Source: Nitrospirales bacterium (GTDB taxonomy: Bacteria > Nitrospirota > Nitrospiria > Nitrospirales > UBA8639). From it: a stretch of 61,307 bases of DNA. Shown here one piece after another: positions 3,393 to 48,501 of the stretch; position 1 is the first letter of the stretch; the number at the start of each line of letters is the position of its first letter. Position numbers and translations under genes: made by a program. The stretch is taken from positions 1 to 61,307 of the forward strand of contig JAJEJG010000016.1 in NCBI GenBank assembly GCA_022828225.1, read 5' to 3'. Below the pieces are notes generated by a model. That model did no database searches. It had not been told where the DNA came from and was given only the letters and a program-made list of their open reading frames with translations.

Positions 3393-4497
3393 ATGCTTGA
3401 GGACATTCGAACCCGTCTGCATACCACCGAAGACCATATCCAAGATTTACGGAGGCGTCTTTGACCTGCCTCGACTACAAAATGAACTCGAGGAACTCGC
3501 ACAGGAAAGTGCCCAACCCGATTTCTGGAAAAATACGCATGTCGCTACCAGGGTAGGACGACGTAAAGCCACCATTGAACGGGACCTCACCCGCCTCACC
3601 GATTTCGAGCAAAGGCAGGCTGATCTGGAAGCCACGCTCGAACTCATCGGGGCGGAAGATGATGCCGAACTCCACGCTGAATTGACCCAGGGCATAGAAG
3701 AGTTGGAAACGCTCCTGGAGCACATGCGCACGGAGCAGTTGCTGGCCGGCGAACATGATGGACGATCCGCCATTCTGGGGATCAATCCCGGCGCCGGCGG
3801 AACGGAATCGCAGGATTGGGCCCAAATGTTGATGCGGATGTTCGTACGATGGGCCGAGGAGAAGAAGTTCAAGGTCGGCAGCATCGACATCCAGCCCGGT
3901 GACGAAGCCGGCATCAAAAGCGCCACGTTGAGTATCGAGGGCCCGTATGCCTACGGCTACCTGAAATCGGAAGCCGGAGTGCACCGGTTGGTGCGGATTT
4001 CTCCATTCGACGCCAACAAACGCCGCCATACGTCGTTTGTCGCCGTGTCGGTCTATCCCGAACTGGATGACGACGTCGAAGTCGAGATCGACGACAAAGA
4101 TCTGAAGATCGACACGTTTCGCGCGGGCGGGGCCGGCGGGCAAAACGTCAATAAAGTCGAAACCGCCATTCGCATGACGCACATTCCCAGCGGGATCGTC
4201 GTGCAATGTCAGAACGAACGCTCGCAATTGCAAAACCGCATGGGCGCCATGCGCGTCCTGAAAGCGAAGATATACGAGTTGGAGCAACGCAAGAAGGAGT
4301 CCGAGTTTCAAACCATCGTCGGCGAAAAAAAAGACATCGCCTGGGGCAGCCAGATCCGGTCGTACGTATTCCAGCCGTATCAAATGGTCAAGGATCACAG
4401 GACGAATCACGAGTCCGGGAACATTGCCTCGGTCATGGATGGAGACCTCGACGCCTTCATCGAAGCCTATCTGAAACAAACCGCCGCGAGTGCATAA
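3393..4497 (+). CDS. prfB: peptide chain release factor 2, with programmed +1 frameshift
   Basis: RF2 recognises UGA and UAA stops and triggers peptide release in the ribosome. The ATG at 3393 (preceded by AAGGAG) opens 23 codons that end in CTT followed by an in-frame TGA at 3462-3464. A Shine-Dalgarno-like CGGAGG lies three nucleotides before CTT, matching the spacing of the classical E. coli prfB frameshift site. A +1 slip on CTT continues into the main frame from GAC at 3463, giving 367 residues. The peptidyl-hydrolysis GGQ motif is present in [15 protein letters not shown]. Expression should be autoregulated by RF2 level. lysS follows, a common arrangement. Confidence 0.97.
3450..3465 (+). 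promoter_or_regulatory. prfB programmed +1 frameshift site
   Basis: CGG-AGG-CGT-CTT-TGA-C. The internal SD-like GGAGG, the slippery CTT and the poor-context stop TGA-C reproduce the known RF2 autoregulatory element at the same spacing. The downstream frame encodes the conserved body of RF2. Confidence 0.95.
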
Positions 4498-10922: not shown

Positions 10923-12104
10923 ATGGAACGGCGAGAGTCTCGAAATTACCCCGGGCAAATACGAGACGCCATCCTGCAAGTCTTGGCGTTGACTTCAAAA
11001 CCCTTACCTATCAAGGAAATCGAAAGCCGGGTGGAAAGAATCGCCGGGCCAACGCCGCCGTCGTCCATCAGATCCTATTTGAGACTCAATACGCCGGATA
11101 TGTTCGTTCGCGAGGAACGCGGCGTCTACAGTCTTCGGACGAATAATTCCGGAGGGATCCAGCGGGAACTGGCTTATCCACAACGATGGGAAGAACCGTT
11201 CGATTACGGAAAAACCACCCTGGTGAACGCCGATTGTTTTGATTGGCTAGAGACTCAGGACCCGAACAGTCTCCATGCGGTTGTCACCGATCCGCCTTAC
11301 GGTTTACATGAATACACGCCGGCGCAGCAGCAAAAACTGCGCAAGGGCAAGGGCGGCGTTTGGCGAATACCCCCGTCGTTCGATGGCAACAGGCGTTCAC
11401 CTGTTCCCCGCTTTACGACCTTGACGCAGCAACAATTGGAACAGCTAGGTTCGTTCTTCTTCGTATGGGGTAAATTGCTGCTTCCAAAACTCGTTCCGGG
11501 CGCACACGTCGTCGTTGCCTCCAACCCCCTTGTTTCCTACATCGTATCGAATGCCTTAGTGGAGGCCGGTTTGGAAAGAAGGGGAGAAATCGTACGCCTG
11601 ACCATGACCATGCGCGGGGGCGACCGCCCCAAGGGCGCTCACGAAAGATTCGGCGAAATCAGCGTTATGCCGCGCTCGATGTGGGAACCATGGATTGTGT
11701 GCAGAAAGCCCGTCGACGGCCGCGTGCAGGACAATCTAAAAAAATGGAAAACCGGCGGATTTCGACGACCCATGCCGGATAAACCTTTCGGCGACGTGAT
11801 CGCTTCGTCGCCTACGAGAAAGAATGAAAAACTACTTGCCTCTCATCCGAGTCTGAAGCCGCAAGCGTTCATGAGACAGGTTGTTCATGCTGCATTGCCC
11901 CTGGGGGAAGGTGTGATTCTCGACCCATTTGCTGGTGCCGGTTCCACGCTGGCTGCAGCGGAAGCTGTAGGCTATGCGAGCATCGGTGTAGAGAAGGACC
12001 CTGAATTTTTCGCCTTGGCCCGCAAGTCGATACCGAAACTTGCGGCACTCGAAACGAACGGGGGAACTAGAGCCTGTATATCCAGCTATCCCGAAGTTTC
12101 CTGA
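10923..12104 (+). CDS. DNA methyltransferase, beta class (probable N6-adenine), of a type II R-M system
   Basis: About 393 residues. The N-terminal ~75 residues resemble a winged-helix domain (QIRDAILQVLALTSKPLPIKEIE). Catalytic motif IV is DPPYG (residues 123-127), and the AdoMet-binding motif I, DPFAGAGST (about 334-342), is near the C-terminus. This order, IV before I, defines the beta group, and DPPY favours adenine-N6 modification (family knowledge). The 3' end overlaps the convergent restriction-enzyme gene by 38 bp. The ATG at 10851 is an alternative start. The target sequence cannot be told. Confidence 0.85.
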   Translation: MERRESRNYPGQIRDAILQVLALTSKPLPIKEIESRVERIAGPTPPSSIRSYLRLNTPDMFVREERGVYSLRTNNSGGIQRELAYPQRWEEPFDYGKTTLVNADCFDWLETQDPNSLHAVVTDPPYGLHEYTPAQQQKLRKGKGGVWRIPPSFDGNRRSPVPRFTTLTQQQLEQLGSFFFVWGKLLLPKLVPGAHVVVASNPLVSYIVSNALVEAGLERRGEIVRLTMTMRGGDRPKGAHERFGEISVMPRSMWEPWIVCRKPVDGRVQDNLKKWKTGGFRRPMPDKPFGDVIASSPTRKNEKLLASHPSLKPQAFMRQVVHAALPLGEGVILDPFAGAGSTLAAAEAVGYASIGVEKDPEFFALARKSIPKLAALETNGGTRACISSYPEVS

Positions 12105-44020: not shown

Positions 44021-44533
44021 CTATGCCGCCACCCGCCATTGATTTTTGATGAGTTGAAAGGTGGGCTTTCTCTTCCCCTTGGGCTGTTTCGCCATCATGA
44101 GTCGCTTCGCAAAGTCGAGCAGGGCTTCCTTGTCAAGCTCGCCTGCATTTGCTTCTCGAATGAGCACACGCGCTAAGGTATCGCCGGTTTCACCAAGATT
44201 TTTATATTTCCCATTTTCGAACCGTGAGAGATGGGCGGGGTTAATCCGCAAAAGTGCCGCTAATTCTTGCGCCTGGAATCCGGCATGCTTGCGGAGATAG
44301 CGCAATTCTTGACCAGTTAAAAGCCCTGGTTTGCGCAACAAGTTCCCGGCAATGACATCCATCAAAAGCCCAAGCTTGGGAATCTCCACGTCATATTCAC
44401 GGCAAGACGCACAATGATGTAACGTGACACCGGCTAGATAGATATTGCTCAACCCACTTTCCACGAAACGATAAGGCTTCTCAATCGTTGTGCGTTCCGA
44501 CAGCAAGGCGCCTCCGCATTTTGGACATTTCAT
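44021..44533 (-). CDS. MqsA-like antitoxin: zinc finger plus XRE helix-turn-helix
   Basis: 170 residues. The N-terminal YgiT-type zinc finger (CPKC at 3-6 and CASC at about 41-44) is followed by an XRE helix-turn-helix (about 72-125: LTGQELRYLRKHAGFQAQELAALLRINPAHLSRFENG) and a basic tail. This is the architecture of MqsA, which neutralises its toxin with the zinc domain and represses the operon with the HTH. AGGAGG lies five bases before the ATG. It follows the DUF4258 gene by 12 bp, toxin first as in mqsRA. Confidence 0.85.
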   Translation of the reverse strand: MKCPKCGGALLSERTTIEKPYRFVESGLSNIYLAGVTLHHCASCREYDVEIPKLGLLMDVIAGNLLRKPGLLTGQELRYLRKHAGFQAQELAALLRINPAHLSRFENGKYKNLGETGDTLARVLIREANAGELDKEALLDFAKRLMMAKQPKGKRKPTFQLIKNQWRVAA

Positions 44534-44545
44534 GAGATCCTCCTT

Positions 44546-44836
44546 TCACCCAATGACCGTAACGATGATGAGTGCGTCTTCGATTTCAACCACACAGGAC
44601 CCTTGTTTGTTATTCAGGGTGTGCCCCTCGATTTTATAACGCCAAGTCCCCTCTGGCATGGAACGATCAACTAACCGGCCATACCATAAAATATTTTTCA
44701 TATCTTGGACTGTGATGTTCCGTTCAGCCATACGTTTGCGAGCATGTTGCCGAATGATGACGGCGTTGTTATTCCAGCGTTCCTTGAGCACCGCCTTAAG
44801 TCGTCGTTCTCCTAATGGCTTAGCATGATAACTCAT
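44546..44836 (-). CDS. DUF4258 protein, probable toxin of a TA pair
   Basis: 96 residues. The DUF4258 pattern is clear: QHARKRMAERNITVQDMKNILWYG, then WRYKIEGHTLNN and VVEIEDALIIVTVIG, a small RelE/MqsR-like fold predicted to be an RNase toxin. It is paired with the MqsA-like antitoxin downstream. The start is uncertain: ATG at 44836 is only about four bases after the predicted transcription start, so the mRNA would be almost leaderless. A TTG at 44875 lies upstream of the predicted -10 element and is unlikely. Confidence 0.75.
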   Translation of the reverse strand: MSYHAKPLGERRLKAVLKERWNNNAVIIRQHARKRMAERNITVQDMKNILWYGRLVDRSMPEGTWRYKIEGHTLNNKQGSCVVEIEDALIIVTVIG

Positions 44837-44846
44837 CAAGTTTAGA

Positions 44847-44875
44847 ATTATAGAAAAATCTTGATAATTTATCAA
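44847..44875 (-). promoter_or_regulatory. Promoter of the DUF4258/MqsA-like pair with overlapping palindrome
   Basis: On the minus strand TTGATA (44875-44870), 17 bp, TATAAT (44852-44847). The perfect palindrome TTGATAA-A-TTATCAA (44861-44875) covers the -35 box, a natural operator position for the antitoxin (inference). Confidence 0.75.
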
Positions 44876-44892
44876 ATAACATCTACTCCTCT

Positions 44893-44921
44893 TTGATTGT
44901 ATAAGTATTTACTTATATAAT
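44893..44921 (+). promoter_or_regulatory. Promoter of the XRE-SPARTA operon with operator-like palindrome
   Basis: TTGATT (44893-44898), 17 bp, TATAAT (44916-44921). The 18-bp inverted repeat TATAAGTA-TT-TACTTATA (44900-44917) fills the spacer and runs into the -10 box. A protein bound here would block RNA polymerase. The likely binder is the XRE protein encoded just downstream (inference). Confidence 0.78.
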
Positions 44922-44966
44922 TGCAAAAGGCTATGAAGCACAAAGAACGGAAGCCTGTTATTTGTC

Positions 44967-45296
44967 ATGAAAAAGAACCCCCACATCGAGTTTGAAGACA
45001 GCTCGGGGAACGTCTTTGCCGATCTGGGTCTGGACCATCACGAAGAGCTACTCACCCGAGCCCAGCTTAGGCATTCGGTGAGAATGATCCTTGAAAAACG
45101 GAATCTGAAACAAAGGGAAATCGGAAAACTGCTGGGAATCAAGCAGCCTGAAGTGTCCAACCTGATGAATGGACGCTACACGCTCTTTTCCCAGGAACGG
45201 TTGTTTGGCTTTCTCAATAAGTTGGACCGCAAAGTCACGGTGAAAGTCACTCCCCGCCGCAACGGAGAAAAACCGCAAGAGGTCGTCTTTGCCTAA
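44967..45296 (+). CDS. XRE-family helix-turn-helix regulator heading the SPARTA operon
   Basis: 109 residues of the HTH_37/HigA-like type. The DNA-binding motif is LKQREIGKLLGIKQPEVSNLMNGRY (about residues 47-71), followed by LFSQERLFGFLNKLDRKVTVKV, typical of antitoxins encoded with RelE/HigB toxins. No such toxin is beside it. Its last codons overlap the TTG start of the TIR-APAZ gene by 8 bp, so the two are translationally coupled. It most likely represses its own promoter and the SPARTA genes, or is a captured antitoxin remnant. Confidence 0.85.
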   Translation: MKKNPHIEFEDSSGNVFADLGLDHHEELLTRAQLRHSVRMILEKRNLKQREIGKLLGIKQPEVSNLMNGRYTLFSQERLFGFLNKLDRKVTVKVTPRRNGEKPQEVVFA

Positions 45297-46794
45297 AACA
45301 TGTCTGCCAATTGATAAAGAAAAAGAGGATACTTGCCATGTACCAGCACCTGCCCAGCGGCAGGCCTTATTCATCAGTCACGCAAATCCTGAAGATAATG
45401 AATTTACGATTTGGCTAGGATCCCATCTCAGTGGAGCAGGCTATGAAGTATGGGCTGATGTCTTAAGGGTTCGCGGGGGTGAAGACTGGGCAAGAAAACT
45501 GGAGCAGGCACTTCGTGAACGAGCTTGTAAGGTTTTGTTGGTCGGAACACCATCGGGGGTCGAGAAACAGGGAGTTCGAAATGAAATTCAAATCGCTTCC
45601 GAAGTAGCCCAAAGAATCGACGACAAAGAGTTCATCATCCCTCTTCGACTACAGCATTATGACTCGCCTTTCCAAATTGCGCAGGCACACTATATCGATT
45701 TTCTGAATGGATGGGGCCAGGGTCTTGCCGACTTGCTAGAGACCTTAGAGGGCTATGAACTGCCCCGCCTACAATCATTTCATGCCGAAAGCATTGAAAA
45801 TTGGCGGGCTGCCCAGTTGGTTAAAACTCACGTAGTCCAACCGAAACCCGAGAAACTGGTTTCTAACTGGCTTCGGATTATTGAGTGGCCAAATTCCATA
45901 AAATATTTTGAGTTTAGAGTTGGAATTTCGGAGGAACGAGTCAAGGCGATAGTGCATAGTTGTAAGTGGCCAGTCTACCCTATTGCTCGTGGATTTTGGA
46001 CATGCGCAGAGAAAAATGATTTCCATACGGACCAGGGTGAATCTTTTCCGATTCTACTTCAGAGGGAATTAGATTTTTCGCACTTTCTCGAGACAGGAAG
46101 ACGTGCTTGCTCAGTTAATCTCCAGGAAGCTAGAAACATCGTTAGTCATCTAACAAGGTGCGCTTTAGAGAACAAATTTCGCGATTGTAATTTATCTTCC
46201 TATGATTACGCCAATGGGATCCTAGGATGGTGGGTCCAATCAAAGTTAATCCCGGGCGATAAAATAAGCTTCAAATGGAAAGAACGGACATCTGGAAGGA
46301 GGCAGTTAGTTGGAGAAACGACTTCTGGACAAACAAGAATTAAATGGCATTTTGGAATATCCGGCAAACCCTGGATGTCACCCGAACCTCATATTCGAAT
46401 TCTGCCACGCATTCTTTTCACAGAAGATGGCTTTCATGCTATCGAAGATGCCAAACGCATGCATCGTTTGCGACGATCTGTACCCAAATCATGGAGAAAT
46501 GAACGTTGGAGAGACATGCTGCTTGCGTTTTTATTCTGGCTTTCGAATGGAGAAGACCATGTTTCCCTCAAAGCAGGATCATCTTCGGGAATAAAGATCG
46601 AAGTACCCCCTATCACGATGATTTCCCCGGTCTCGGTCAGTCATGACAAAAGCGAAGAGCCAGAAGAGATTGAGGTTGATGATCCTGTCTTTGAAGGAAA
46701 CTTTGACGAGTTTATCGAAGAAGATTATGAAGAGGACAACGAATCTCAACCTGACGAAGAAAAACCATCTATACAAAGGCAAAAGGAAGATTAA
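45289..46794 (+). CDS. TIR-APAZ effector of a SPARTA-type short Argonaute system
   Basis: 501 residues. The N-terminal TIR domain (about 25-160; ALFISHANPEDNEF, GYEVWADV, GVEKQGVRNEIQIA) has a candidate NADase glutamate at E99. The remainder fits an APAZ domain that docks on short Argonaute. The C-terminal ~55 residues are strongly acidic. In known SPARTA systems guide-directed sensing of invader DNA activates the TIR domain to deplete NAD+ and kill or arrest the cell. TTG at 45289 is chosen, with AGAGG six bases upstream; an ATG at 45338 is out of frame. The pAgo gene begins five bases after the stop. Confidence 0.88.
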   Translation: MPKTCLPIDKEKEDTCHVPAPAQRQALFISHANPEDNEFTIWLGSHLSGAGYEVWADVLRVRGGEDWARKLEQALRERACKVLLVGTPSGVEKQGVRNEIQIASEVAQRIDDKEFIIPLRLQHYDSPFQIAQAHYIDFLNGWGQGLADLLETLEGYELPRLQSFHAESIENWRAAQLVKTHVVQPKPEKLVSNWLRIIEWPNSIKYFEFRVGISEERVKAIVHSCKWPVYPIARGFWTCAEKNDFHTDQGESFPILLQRELDFSHFLETGRRACSVNLQEARNIVSHLTRCALENKFRDCNLSSYDYANGILGWWVQSKLIPGDKISFKWKERTSGRRQLVGETTSGQTRIKWHFGISGKPWMSPEPHIRILPRILFTEDGFHAIEDAKRMHRLRRSVPKSWRNERWRDMLLAFLFWLSNGEDHVSLKAGSSSGIKIEVPPITMISPVSVSHDKSEEPEEIEVDDPVFEGNFDEFIEEDYEEDNESQPDEEKPSIQRQKED

Positions 46795-46799
46795 ACATC

Positions 46800-48329
46800 G
46801 TGGAATTGGATTTTGTTGAAGAGCCCAAACTGGAATTTGCATTTGAGCAAAACGAAGAATATCCCCGTGACGGGCTTTTTCTTTTTGGCCCCATAAAAGA
46901 TGAGGCAGCACCAGAAACCCTACGGTATGGGGTCATTGGAACATCCGATGGGATTAAACGCTTTAAGCGGTGGGCTCAAACAATTGGAGGTTATATCAAA
47001 CGATTCGAACCTCGTTTAAACCCAGAAGCCCAACACCATACTTCGTTTCCAGGATTTGAGAGCGTGTTTCGGTCCAAATGTCCCACAGAACCCTTGGCCA
47101 CGATAAAAGTTTCCGAAACGGAGTTGAAGAAAGCCCTTGGAATAGAAAATCGTTTTGAGGCTATCAAAAGTGCTGTTGACCTATACGTTGATCCTCTTAT
47201 TGATTTTTCAAAGAGGGAAGAAGCAGAACCTGACTTTTGGTTTGTGGTGATTCCCGAGTTTGTGTATCTACTTGGCAGACCGACATCCAAAGTCCCCAGA
47301 AATGAAAGAACGCCAGGCAAAGTCACCATATCACGAGCCAGAGCTCGACATATAAAAACGGCACCCACCTTATTTGGATATGAGGAAGAAGAAGCTGAAG
47401 TTTATAGATACTCAAAGCATTTCCGCAGGCAACTTAAAGCAAGACTGCTTAAAGATAAAATTGTGACGCAGATTGTCCGGGAAACAACATTGACTCCTGA
47501 TGATTTCAAAACAAGTTTTGGAAGTCTTATTCGTAAGGTAGAAGACCCGGCCACAATTGCATGGAAACTTTGTACAACAGCTTATTATAAGGCAGGGGGC
47601 AAACCCTGGAGACTGTCTGGAGTACGACCGGGTGTGTGTTATGTGGGATTAGTCTATAAACAGACTGATCCCGATTCAGATGACCCCAATGCCTGCTGTG
47701 CCGCGCAGATGTTTCTATCCTCTGGCGATGGCCTCGTATTCAGAGGAGCCGCCGGTCCTTGGTATACCCCATCAAACAAAGAATATCACCTAGAAAAGAA
47801 ACCCGCCGCAGAACTGATGTCATTGGTAGTATCGGAATATAAGAGACTGCATGATAACCAAGACCCGTCCGAGCTTTTTATTCATGGCCGCACGAAATTC
47901 GACGACCAAGAGTGGGAGGGGTTTCAGTCCGCTGTACCATCTTCAACAAATTTGGTTGGTGTTCAAATTCGGGATGCCAAATCAGAACTAAAGCTTTTCA
48001 GCCCAAGGAAATACCCGGTCATAAGAGGAACTACACTAAAATTATCAGAACGGACCGCATATTTATGGACAAGTGGCTATATACCCAGATTAAACACCTA
48101 CCTAGGTCCTGAAACACCAAATCCTATTTTCGTTCATGTCCAAAAAGGGGATTGTCCCATGGATATGGTCTTAGCGGATGTAATGCGCCTGACTAAACTT
48201 AATTACAATACATGCCTGTTTAATGACCGGCTTCCCGTAACCATCAAATTCGCCAATGCCGTGGGAGAAGTCCTTATATCTGCCCCCCAGACTGAGGAGC
48301 CGAAGCTTCCTTTTAAATTTTACATTTAG
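46800..48329 (+). CDS. short prokaryotic Argonaute (MID-PIWI), catalytically inactive
   Basis: 509 residues, MID (about 30-260) and PIWI (about 260-509) domains without PAZ or N domains. The MID 5'-phosphate pocket is marked by YSKHFRRQLKARLLKDKI (about 204-221). PIWI begins at GGKPWRLSGVRPGVCYVGLVY, where the first catalytic Asp is absent, so target cleavage is not expected. Paired with the upstream TIR-APAZ protein it forms the SPARTA heterodimer; short pAgo binds a small guide and recognises complementary DNA. The start is GTG at 46800 with AGGAAG upstream. Composition is clearly AT-richer than the flanks. Confidence 0.88.
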   Translation: MELDFVEEPKLEFAFEQNEEYPRDGLFLFGPIKDEAAPETLRYGVIGTSDGIKRFKRWAQTIGGYIKRFEPRLNPEAQHHTSFPGFESVFRSKCPTEPLATIKVSETELKKALGIENRFEAIKSAVDLYVDPLIDFSKREEAEPDFWFVVIPEFVYLLGRPTSKVPRNERTPGKVTISRARARHIKTAPTLFGYEEEEAEVYRYSKHFRRQLKARLLKDKIVTQIVRETTLTPDDFKTSFGSLIRKVEDPATIAWKLCTTAYYKAGGKPWRLSGVRPGVCYVGLVYKQTDPDSDDPNACCAAQMFLSSGDGLVFRGAAGPWYTPSNKEYHLEKKPAAELMSLVVSEYKRLHDNQDPSELFIHGRTKFDDQEWEGFQSAVPSSTNLVGVQIRDAKSELKLFSPRKYPVIRGTTLKLSERTAYLWTSGYIPRLNTYLGPETPNPIFVHVQKGDCPMDMVLADVMRLTKLNYNTCLFNDRLPVTIKFANAVGEVLISAPQTEEPKLPFKFYI

Positions 48330-48425: not shown

Positions 48426-48501
48426 TGGCGCGCCCGAGAGGAGTCGAACCTCTAACCTTTTGATCCGTAGTCAAATGCTCTATCCATTGAGCTACGGGCG
48501 C
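48426..48501 (-). tRNA. tRNA-Arg (anticodon ACG)
   Basis: 76 nt including encoded CCA. Acceptor GCGCCCG/CGGGCGC, D arm GCTC/GAGC, anticodon stem TTTGA/TCAAA with loop CTACGGA (anticodon ACG), T arm AGAGG-TTCGACT-CCTCT. Its 3' end faces the SPARTA genes 97 bp away. Confidence 0.97.

Follow-up and report, generated by a model that had tools for sequence, protein, structure and literature searches.

Gene content of the locus

The DNA analysed here is a 61,307-nucleotide stretch of a Nitrospirales bacterium (assembly GCA_022828225.1, contig JAJEJG010000016.1, positions 1 to 61,307; hereafter the window). It contains an operon of the short prokaryotic Argonaute, TIR-APAZ (SPARTA) type, preceded by a gene for a helix-turn-helix (HTH) protein (Table 1). 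The HTH and TIR-APAZ genes overlap by 8 bp, and a gap of 5 bp separates the TIR-APAZ gene from that of the short prokaryotic Argonaute (pAgo); these coordinates, frames and spacings agreed with a first-pass annotation made from the sequence alone. The start codons TTG and GTG are predicted; no listed start codon other than the TTG precedes the domain in the TIR-APAZ frame. The guanine-plus-cytosine content of the TIR-APAZ and pAgo genes is 43-48%, and that of the flanks outside the stretch formed by the MqsA/DUF4258 genes and the HTH gene is 51-61%.

Table 1. Features of the HTH-SPARTA locus, with positions in the window
Feature	Position	Strand	Basis
TTGATT-17-TATAAT promoter retained from the higBA-like operon; the promoter-like site best placed for HTH-SPARTA	44893..44921	+	Consensus, 10/12 matches
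Palindrome of 18 bp, TATAAGTATTTACTTATA, in the promoter spacer; putative HTH operator	44900..44917		8-bp arms
Remnant of the first higB codons, now a short leader frame overlapping the HTH start	44933..44995	+	Junction alignment with intact copies
HTH gene; HTH_37 antitoxin (HigA-like), orphaned, putative repressor	44967..45296	+	Pfam, HTH comparisons, structure match
AAGAGG, ribosome-binding-like, 6 nt ahead of the TIR-APAZ TTG and within the antitoxin gene	45277..45282	+	Sequence comparison
TIR-APAZ gene; predicted TTG start within the antitoxin gene, acidic C-terminal tail	45289..46794	+	Pfam, PADLOC, PDB
Short pAgo gene (MID-PIWI); catalytically inactive tetrad	46800..48329	+	PADLOC, PDB
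tRNA-Arg (ACG), bordering the insertion site on the right	48426..48501	-	Comparison with SPARTA-free genomes

The two core proteins form an ordinary SPARTA, an identity that is as good as certain from their sequence matches and that bears out the first-pass call. The middle protein starts with a TIR_2 domain (Pfam, 3.8e-21), belongs to the PADLOC family Aga_TIR-PNTD1-PNTD2 (6e-149, residues 23-463 of 501) and matches the TIR-APAZ chains of solved SPARTA structures in the PDB (best 4.3e-57). The short pAgo was assigned to PADLOC pAgo_I (class I, 1.1e-207) over nearly its full length and aligned to the Ago chain of a solved SPARTA (PDB 8ifk_B, 4.2e-132, residues 2-509). No Pfam match to this protein, Piwi included, was obtained at E-values up to 1; Pfam Piwi was rejected as a criterion because it misses this pAgo family, and PADLOC and PDB were used for the call.

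Key residues were counted by hand on the PDB alignments, against the positions given in the available text of PMC11156904 and PMC10474274. The catalytic glutamate of the TIR domain is E99 (E77 in PMC10474274), and the guide-contacting MID tyrosine, Tyr148, is Y156 here. The PIWI tetrad is V285, Y329, R364 and N486, corresponding to Val284, Tyr328, Arg362 and Asn484, which the available text of PMC11156904 describes as non-catalytic substitutes in the SPARTA PIWI domain. The first catalytic Asp, already reported as missing, is indeed absent, which is normal for SPARTA.

The HTH gene as a probable relic of a Gp49-HTH_37 pair

The HTH protein matches HTH_37 at 1.5e-21, and HTH_37 and HTH_3 were the sole Pfam families above their curated cut-offs. 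Its structural model (predicted local distance difference test score 66, with floppy ends) was nearest to the XRE regulator 2o38, followed by 2a6c and by HigA2 of M. tuberculosis (E 0.02). Matches to the HTH at 1e-5 were found in 11 of the 14 genomes of the genus, and four besides the window's own (G077, G227, G276 and G386) contain proteins 92-94% identical to it; two more copies (75%) lie at another place in G177.

In G077, G276 and G386, the same chromosomal site, flanked by a HEAT-repeat gene and by tRNA-Arg/miaB, is occupied by a Gp49 toxin gene directly followed by the HTH gene. The Gp49 toxins of the intact pairs match at 9.5e-22 and 1e-20, and that of G386 at 3e-20; in the SPARTA-free G077 and G276, tRNA-Arg lies 13 bp past the HTH stop. 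Over residues 37-98, the window HTH and the antitoxin of the intact pair in G077 are identical. Gp49-HTH is among the toxin-antitoxin (TA) families listed in the available text of PMC11980606. Since intact Gp49-HTH pairs occupy the same site in relatives, the HTH is very likely, on sequence grounds, the orphaned antitoxin of a resident higBA-like TA pair, which refines its earlier description as HigA-like.

Junctions of the SPARTA operon

Alignment of the left junction showed the promoter and the first higB codons, then a deletion that extends to just before the antitoxin start, and then the whole antitoxin gene. The deletion also took an AAGGAG-like stretch ahead of the antitoxin start. Past the antitoxin gene, the SPARTA-containing and SPARTA-free copies share just GCCTRAAAC; this stretch extends 3 bp beyond the stop codon, and SPARTA begins there. 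On the right side, the last position of the pAgo gene is 48329, and from ~48423, adjoining tRNA-Arg, the chromosome is shared again.

The TTG of TIR-APAZ and its AAGAGG motif belong to the antitoxin gene, and both exist in the SPARTA-free copies. In the nearest relatives that lack the HTH (pAgo identities of 80-81%; they belong to the same order as the window's organism and include Nitrospira sp. UBA2083, among the best 80 of 472 pAgo relatives), an ATG is found 3 residues before the aligned domain start.

Most genomes of the genus (13 of 14) have Gp49 matches, and the genome of the window has four, two of them weak, all outside this contig. These, and the persistence of an orphan copy of the antitoxin in G227, would fit an antitoxin retained as protection against the Gp49 toxins of incoming plasmids or phages, its position ahead of SPARTA being incidental. 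We regard this as very unlikely. No second relative of the HTH was found in the window's own genome at 1e-5, so that the Gp49 genes elsewhere in that genome are either paired with something else or unpaired, and protection from toxins does not account for the placing of the predicted TIR-APAZ start codon within the antitoxin gene.

Promoter and putative operator

The promoter ahead of the HTH gene aligns with its counterparts before the intact pairs of G077, G276 and G386 and before the second HTH copy in G227 (copy 2). Promoter-like sites in the region are no more numerous than in its shuffles, so the call rests on conservation; with a simple consensus, no plus-strand promoter-like site was found between 44921 and 48600.

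When up to two mismatches are allowed, five of the 14 genus genomes have the palindrome TATAAGTATTTACTTATA, at one place each, and the remaining nine lack it. The five are exactly those with an HTH of at least 92% identity, and every place precedes that HTH, which in G227 is copy 2. A control with the reversed pattern gave 0, and the chance expectation in the window is 0.01; as the pattern was picked from these same alignments, the informative part of the count is its absence elsewhere. A comparable but imperfect palindrome precedes the higB of one G177 copy. In E. coli K-12, HigA and HigBA regulate their own expression by way of palindromes in the promoter, according to the available text of PMC11980606.

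From these features we infer, with somewhat better than even confidence, that the orphaned antitoxin represses the promoter driving SPARTA, which is the best reading of the locus. A SPARTA operon would have entered the resident higBA-like locus beside tRNA-Arg, with loss of higB and retention of the promoter and the antitoxin gene, and translation of TIR-APAZ would start at the TTG in the terminal part of the antitoxin gene. The toxin-free antitoxin would bind the palindrome, holding down antitoxin, TIR-APAZ and pAgo as one transcription unit. Type II antitoxins usually fall by proteolysis or stress, and such a fall would open the promoter and allow SPARTA to be made. SPARTA would then act in its established way, a tetramer formed in response to guide RNA and target DNA destroying NAD(P)+. 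The first-pass annotation had proposed that the HTH gives the system its own repressor; this proposal is retained as a putative role, although the route through toxin loss and antitoxin capture was absent from it.

Distribution and divergence of the HTH-SPARTA arrangement

A pAgo scan with a 14-sequence alignment against a species-genome collection (84,980 genomes) yielded 472 relatives. The best 80 of these, 12 plasmid regions (drawn from 101 plasmid records with a match), 15 stretches from a sample of the phylum, two viral contigs and the window made up 110 sources, which were queried with the three window proteins within the flanks covered; six sources begin inside TIR-APAZ, and some are duplicates, G227 being counted twice (L035 and L046). 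TIR-APAZ was matched in 101 of the 110 sources, and the HTH (E up to 1e-3) solely in the window and in G227, of the same genus. In the phylum, pAgo_I matches occur in 14 of 395 genomes, including the window's own. Within the genus, G077, G276, G386 and G177 have the HTH (as the 75% copies in G177) with no pAgo_I match. No pAgo match was found in phages at 1e-5, and the two pAgo relatives among 44 pattern matches in viral contigs both lack a window-type HTH. The HTH was therefore rejected as a conserved third SPARTA gene: in the sources searched, its synteny with TIR-APAZ is confined to one genus. The earlier remark that a three-gene arrangement is unusual held; by the refuting condition set there, the HTH is no general SPARTA component.

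Synonymous divergence (dS) between the window and G227 was highest for mtaB (0.635 over 232 codons) and the HEAT gene (0.614), followed by the resident HTH (0.52) and mraZ (0.41). It was lower for TIR-APAZ (0.24), pAgo (0.15 in its first 410 codons), MqsA (0.19) and DUF4258 (0.25). The lower values of SPARTA and MqsA/DUF4258 than of the HTH and its neighbours indicate that the former probably moved between lineages after their split, the HTH being probably native and inherited. Between the window HTH and its G386 counterpart, nonsynonymous divergence (dN) was 0.045 and dS 0.393.

Several observations weigh against a regulatory role of the antitoxin. Copy 2 of G227 carries the same toxin deletion with no SPARTA behind it, so a toxin-less antitoxin persists where there is no SPARTA to be regulated. 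With the AAGGAG-like stretch deleted, translation of the antitoxin may be weak. The dS of the window HTH is 0.25 against G077, which retains the toxin, and 0.52 against copy 2 of G227, which shares the deletion; because the window HTH is nearer to the toxin-bearing copy, the deletion was probably exchanged, and here it may be recent and the toxin-less period short. The dN/dS of the window HTH is 0.15 against G077, 0.10 against G276 and 0.08 against copy 2 of G227; these pairwise values count in favour of the repressor reading but do not isolate the time since toxin loss. In G227, the SPARTA-linked HTH copy has a dN/dS of 0.26-0.36 against close copies, altered residues in its helix-turn-helix stretch and no palindrome in the preceding 260 bp, and the pAgo gene is broken by a frameshift. 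Among the sources searched, the HTH was seen with TIR-APAZ in just two genomes, both of one genus.

The orphan antitoxin could instead be a mere resident of a tRNA hot spot, whose transcript SPARTA borrows with no meaningful regulation by the HTH; we hold this to be possible, at well below an even chance. It agrees with the turnover at the tRNA-Arg site, where MqsA/DUF4258, Gp49-HTH, another HigBA, SPARTA or a methylase cluster is found depending on the genome, as well as with the synteny in a single genus, the survival of an orphan without SPARTA in G227 and a toxin loss that may be recent. It accords less well with the promoter and palindrome kept in front of the HTH, with the identity of residues 37-98 to an intact-pair antitoxin, and with the location of the TIR-APAZ start codon within the antitoxin gene.

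HigA fusion and toxin-antitoxin genes at other SPARTA loci

In three Latescibacterota contigs (L072, L075 and L079), the TIR-APAZ frame has ~89 extra N-terminal residues. In L072 this extension matches HTH_3 (2.7e-8), TIGR02607 HigA antitoxin (8.3e-12, just under the cut-off) and the HigA structure 2icp (2.8e-8), and in the structural model (score 75) five helices precede the first TIR strand. The gene ahead of the L072 fusion is weakly HigB-like (Pfam 8.7e-4, below the cut-off, with no NCBIfam match), and in L079 the HigB-like upstream gene is split in two frames. The related L078 and L069 have TIR-APAZ without the HigA fusion. By these matches the fused antitoxin is a HigA, of an HTH family other than that of the window HTH, and since the families differ, the overlap in the genus of the window and the fusion in Latescibacterota were taken as independent captures.

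The physical fusion of HigA to TIR-APAZ, and the antitoxin-like fold of the modelled window HTH, would also be compatible with the HTH as a third subunit that binds TIR-APAZ or pAgo and keeps the complex inactive, SPARTA being the toxin of a new TA-like module. According to the available text of PMC11156904, however, the SPARTA heterodimer is inactive already without any HTH, and we consider a third subunit improbable, the least likely of the explanations weighed here. Repression by the antitoxin remains our preferred reading. The first-pass annotation had held that an HTH gene without synteny at other SPARTA loci would likely be incidental; this is not the sole outcome, since the promoter and palindrome were kept, the TIR-APAZ start codon lies in the antitoxin gene and a separate HigA fusion exists elsewhere.

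In an exploratory count (same strand, about 450 bp), TA genes were found just upstream of SPARTA at 11 of the 85 loci with enough upstream sequence, and downstream at 1 of 82 (DarT, L062); Fisher's p was 0.005 by locus, and 0.018 by unrelated case, of which nine out of 83 had such genes upstream (L018, L025, L046, L062, L070, L072/L075/L079, L078, L083 and L121). The count is based on Pfam neighbour tallies (25 of 54 and 25 of 46 families), the remainder being judged by eye on the frames listed and spot-tested, and the two sides received unequal care; NCBIfam neighbour tallies (25 of 267 and 25 of 135 rows) were not selective. The window had been excluded beforehand, as had partial loci, duplicates and L054 (treated as a copy of L018), and a nucleotidyltransferase-like gene in L102 and L115 (in L102 with no Pfam match) was not counted. 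Two members are weak: L062, where the toxin remnant has no Pfam match and the antitoxin gene ends ~500 bp away, and L072, whose HigB is under its Pfam cut-off.

A tentative generalisation, which we think could hold but would not expect to, is that type II TA modules repeatedly serve SPARTA as landing sites and as a means of regulation: an antitoxin is captured, by overlap in the genus of the window and by in-frame fusion in Latescibacterota, the toxin decays and the NAD-depleting SPARTA replaces it under antitoxin control.

Individual loci differ in their arrangement. In L018 (2087-4972, an Indioceanicola plasmid), AbiEi-AbiEii TA genes overlap the TIR-APAZ start; L054 gave the same scores and is filed as an Acidimicrobiaceae metagenome-assembled genome, possibly by a binning error. 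In L070, a RelB/DinJ antitoxin gene (4155-4421) lies ~100 bp ahead of TIR-APAZ with no recognised toxin gene between them, and a YafQ-like frame, named by eye, is found 1 kb off on the opposite strand. Extensions of ~200 N-terminal TIR-APAZ residues were found in L026, L027, L028, L029, L085, L092, L110, L112 and L117, mainly in rhizobia, roseobacter-like bacteria and sphingomonads.

Other genes at the tRNA-Arg site

Divergent from the HTH gene, on the minus strand (44021-44875), is a pair of genes for an MqsA-like antitoxin (below curated cut-offs) and a DUF4258 protein; DUF4258-MqsA is also a TA family listed in the available text of PMC11980606. The pair is probably mobile, as it is unmatched at the site in G077, G276 and G386 yet 92-93% identical in G227. 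The same tRNA-Arg hot spot in G227 (L046, 365-3942) contains genes for a HEAT-repeat protein and an N6/N4 DNA methylase, together with a small HTH-like frame identified by eye; the set is possibly a further defence cluster. In L046, the 3' end of tRNA-Arg is repeated directly after the resident antitoxin gene (~10260 and 11040-11115), and a HigB-HigA pair sits between the repeat and the full tRNA-Arg; from the sequence, the repeat looks like an attachment-site duplication.

Comparison with known systems

For the silencing of suicidal immune operons, this locus offers a concrete, testable candidate with a named putative operator. It also proposes a route from TA module to defence regulator, in which the toxin is lost, the antitoxin and its promoter are kept and an immune operon is gained; the separate HigA::TIR-APAZ fusion raises the case above a single accident and suggests that antitoxins are convertible into immune-gene regulators. 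Partner swapping among TA systems is known (PMC10440598, available text).

The locus resembles the solved SPARTA systems (PDB 8ifk, 8fex) in both core proteins nearly end to end, in the catalytic Glu, the inactive tetrad and the MID tyrosine, and in the order of TIR-APAZ and pAgo, and differs from them in the overlapping antitoxin gene in front, with the TTG of TIR-APAZ inside it. With Gp49-HTH type II modules it shares the HTH_37 antitoxin (92-94% identity to the proteins of intact pairs), the promoter and the palindrome; unlike them, it has no adjacent Gp49 toxin and has a SPARTA operon behind the antitoxin.

Among the regulators of immune operons, CapW/BrxR is marked by a WYL domain, and CapP is the partner protease of CapH. 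No features of CapW/BrxR or CapH+CapP were found in the Pfam and PADLOC scans, in which the HTH matched only HTH_37/HTH_3 above curated cut-offs and the neighbours scanned were MqsA-like, DUF4258, HEAT and SPARTA. Like CapW/BrxR, CapH+CapP and CapK+CapS, the window HTH is a DNA-binding protein encoded beside an immune operon; those regulators sense single-stranded DNA, directly or via a protease or kinase partner (PMC13373217, available text), whereas the candidate described here is a bare type II antitoxin with no sensing partner recognised alongside.

In the literature titles and abstract openings searched (most subscription papers and all preprints being outside the search), neither an antitoxin-controlled or antitoxin-fused SPARTA nor a regulator of SPARTA was named. 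Repressors beside immune operons (PMC13373217) and DNA-binding genes in pAgo operons (PMC6299218) are already known from the available text of these sources, the latter occurring in 13% of the operons of short pAgos without fused SIR2-APAZ (Ryazansky et al. 2018). To that account, as far as its available text goes, the window adds the identity of the DNA-binding protein as very likely an antitoxin, the loss of its toxin and a putative operator, and the Latescibacterota contigs add the HigA::TIR-APAZ fusion.

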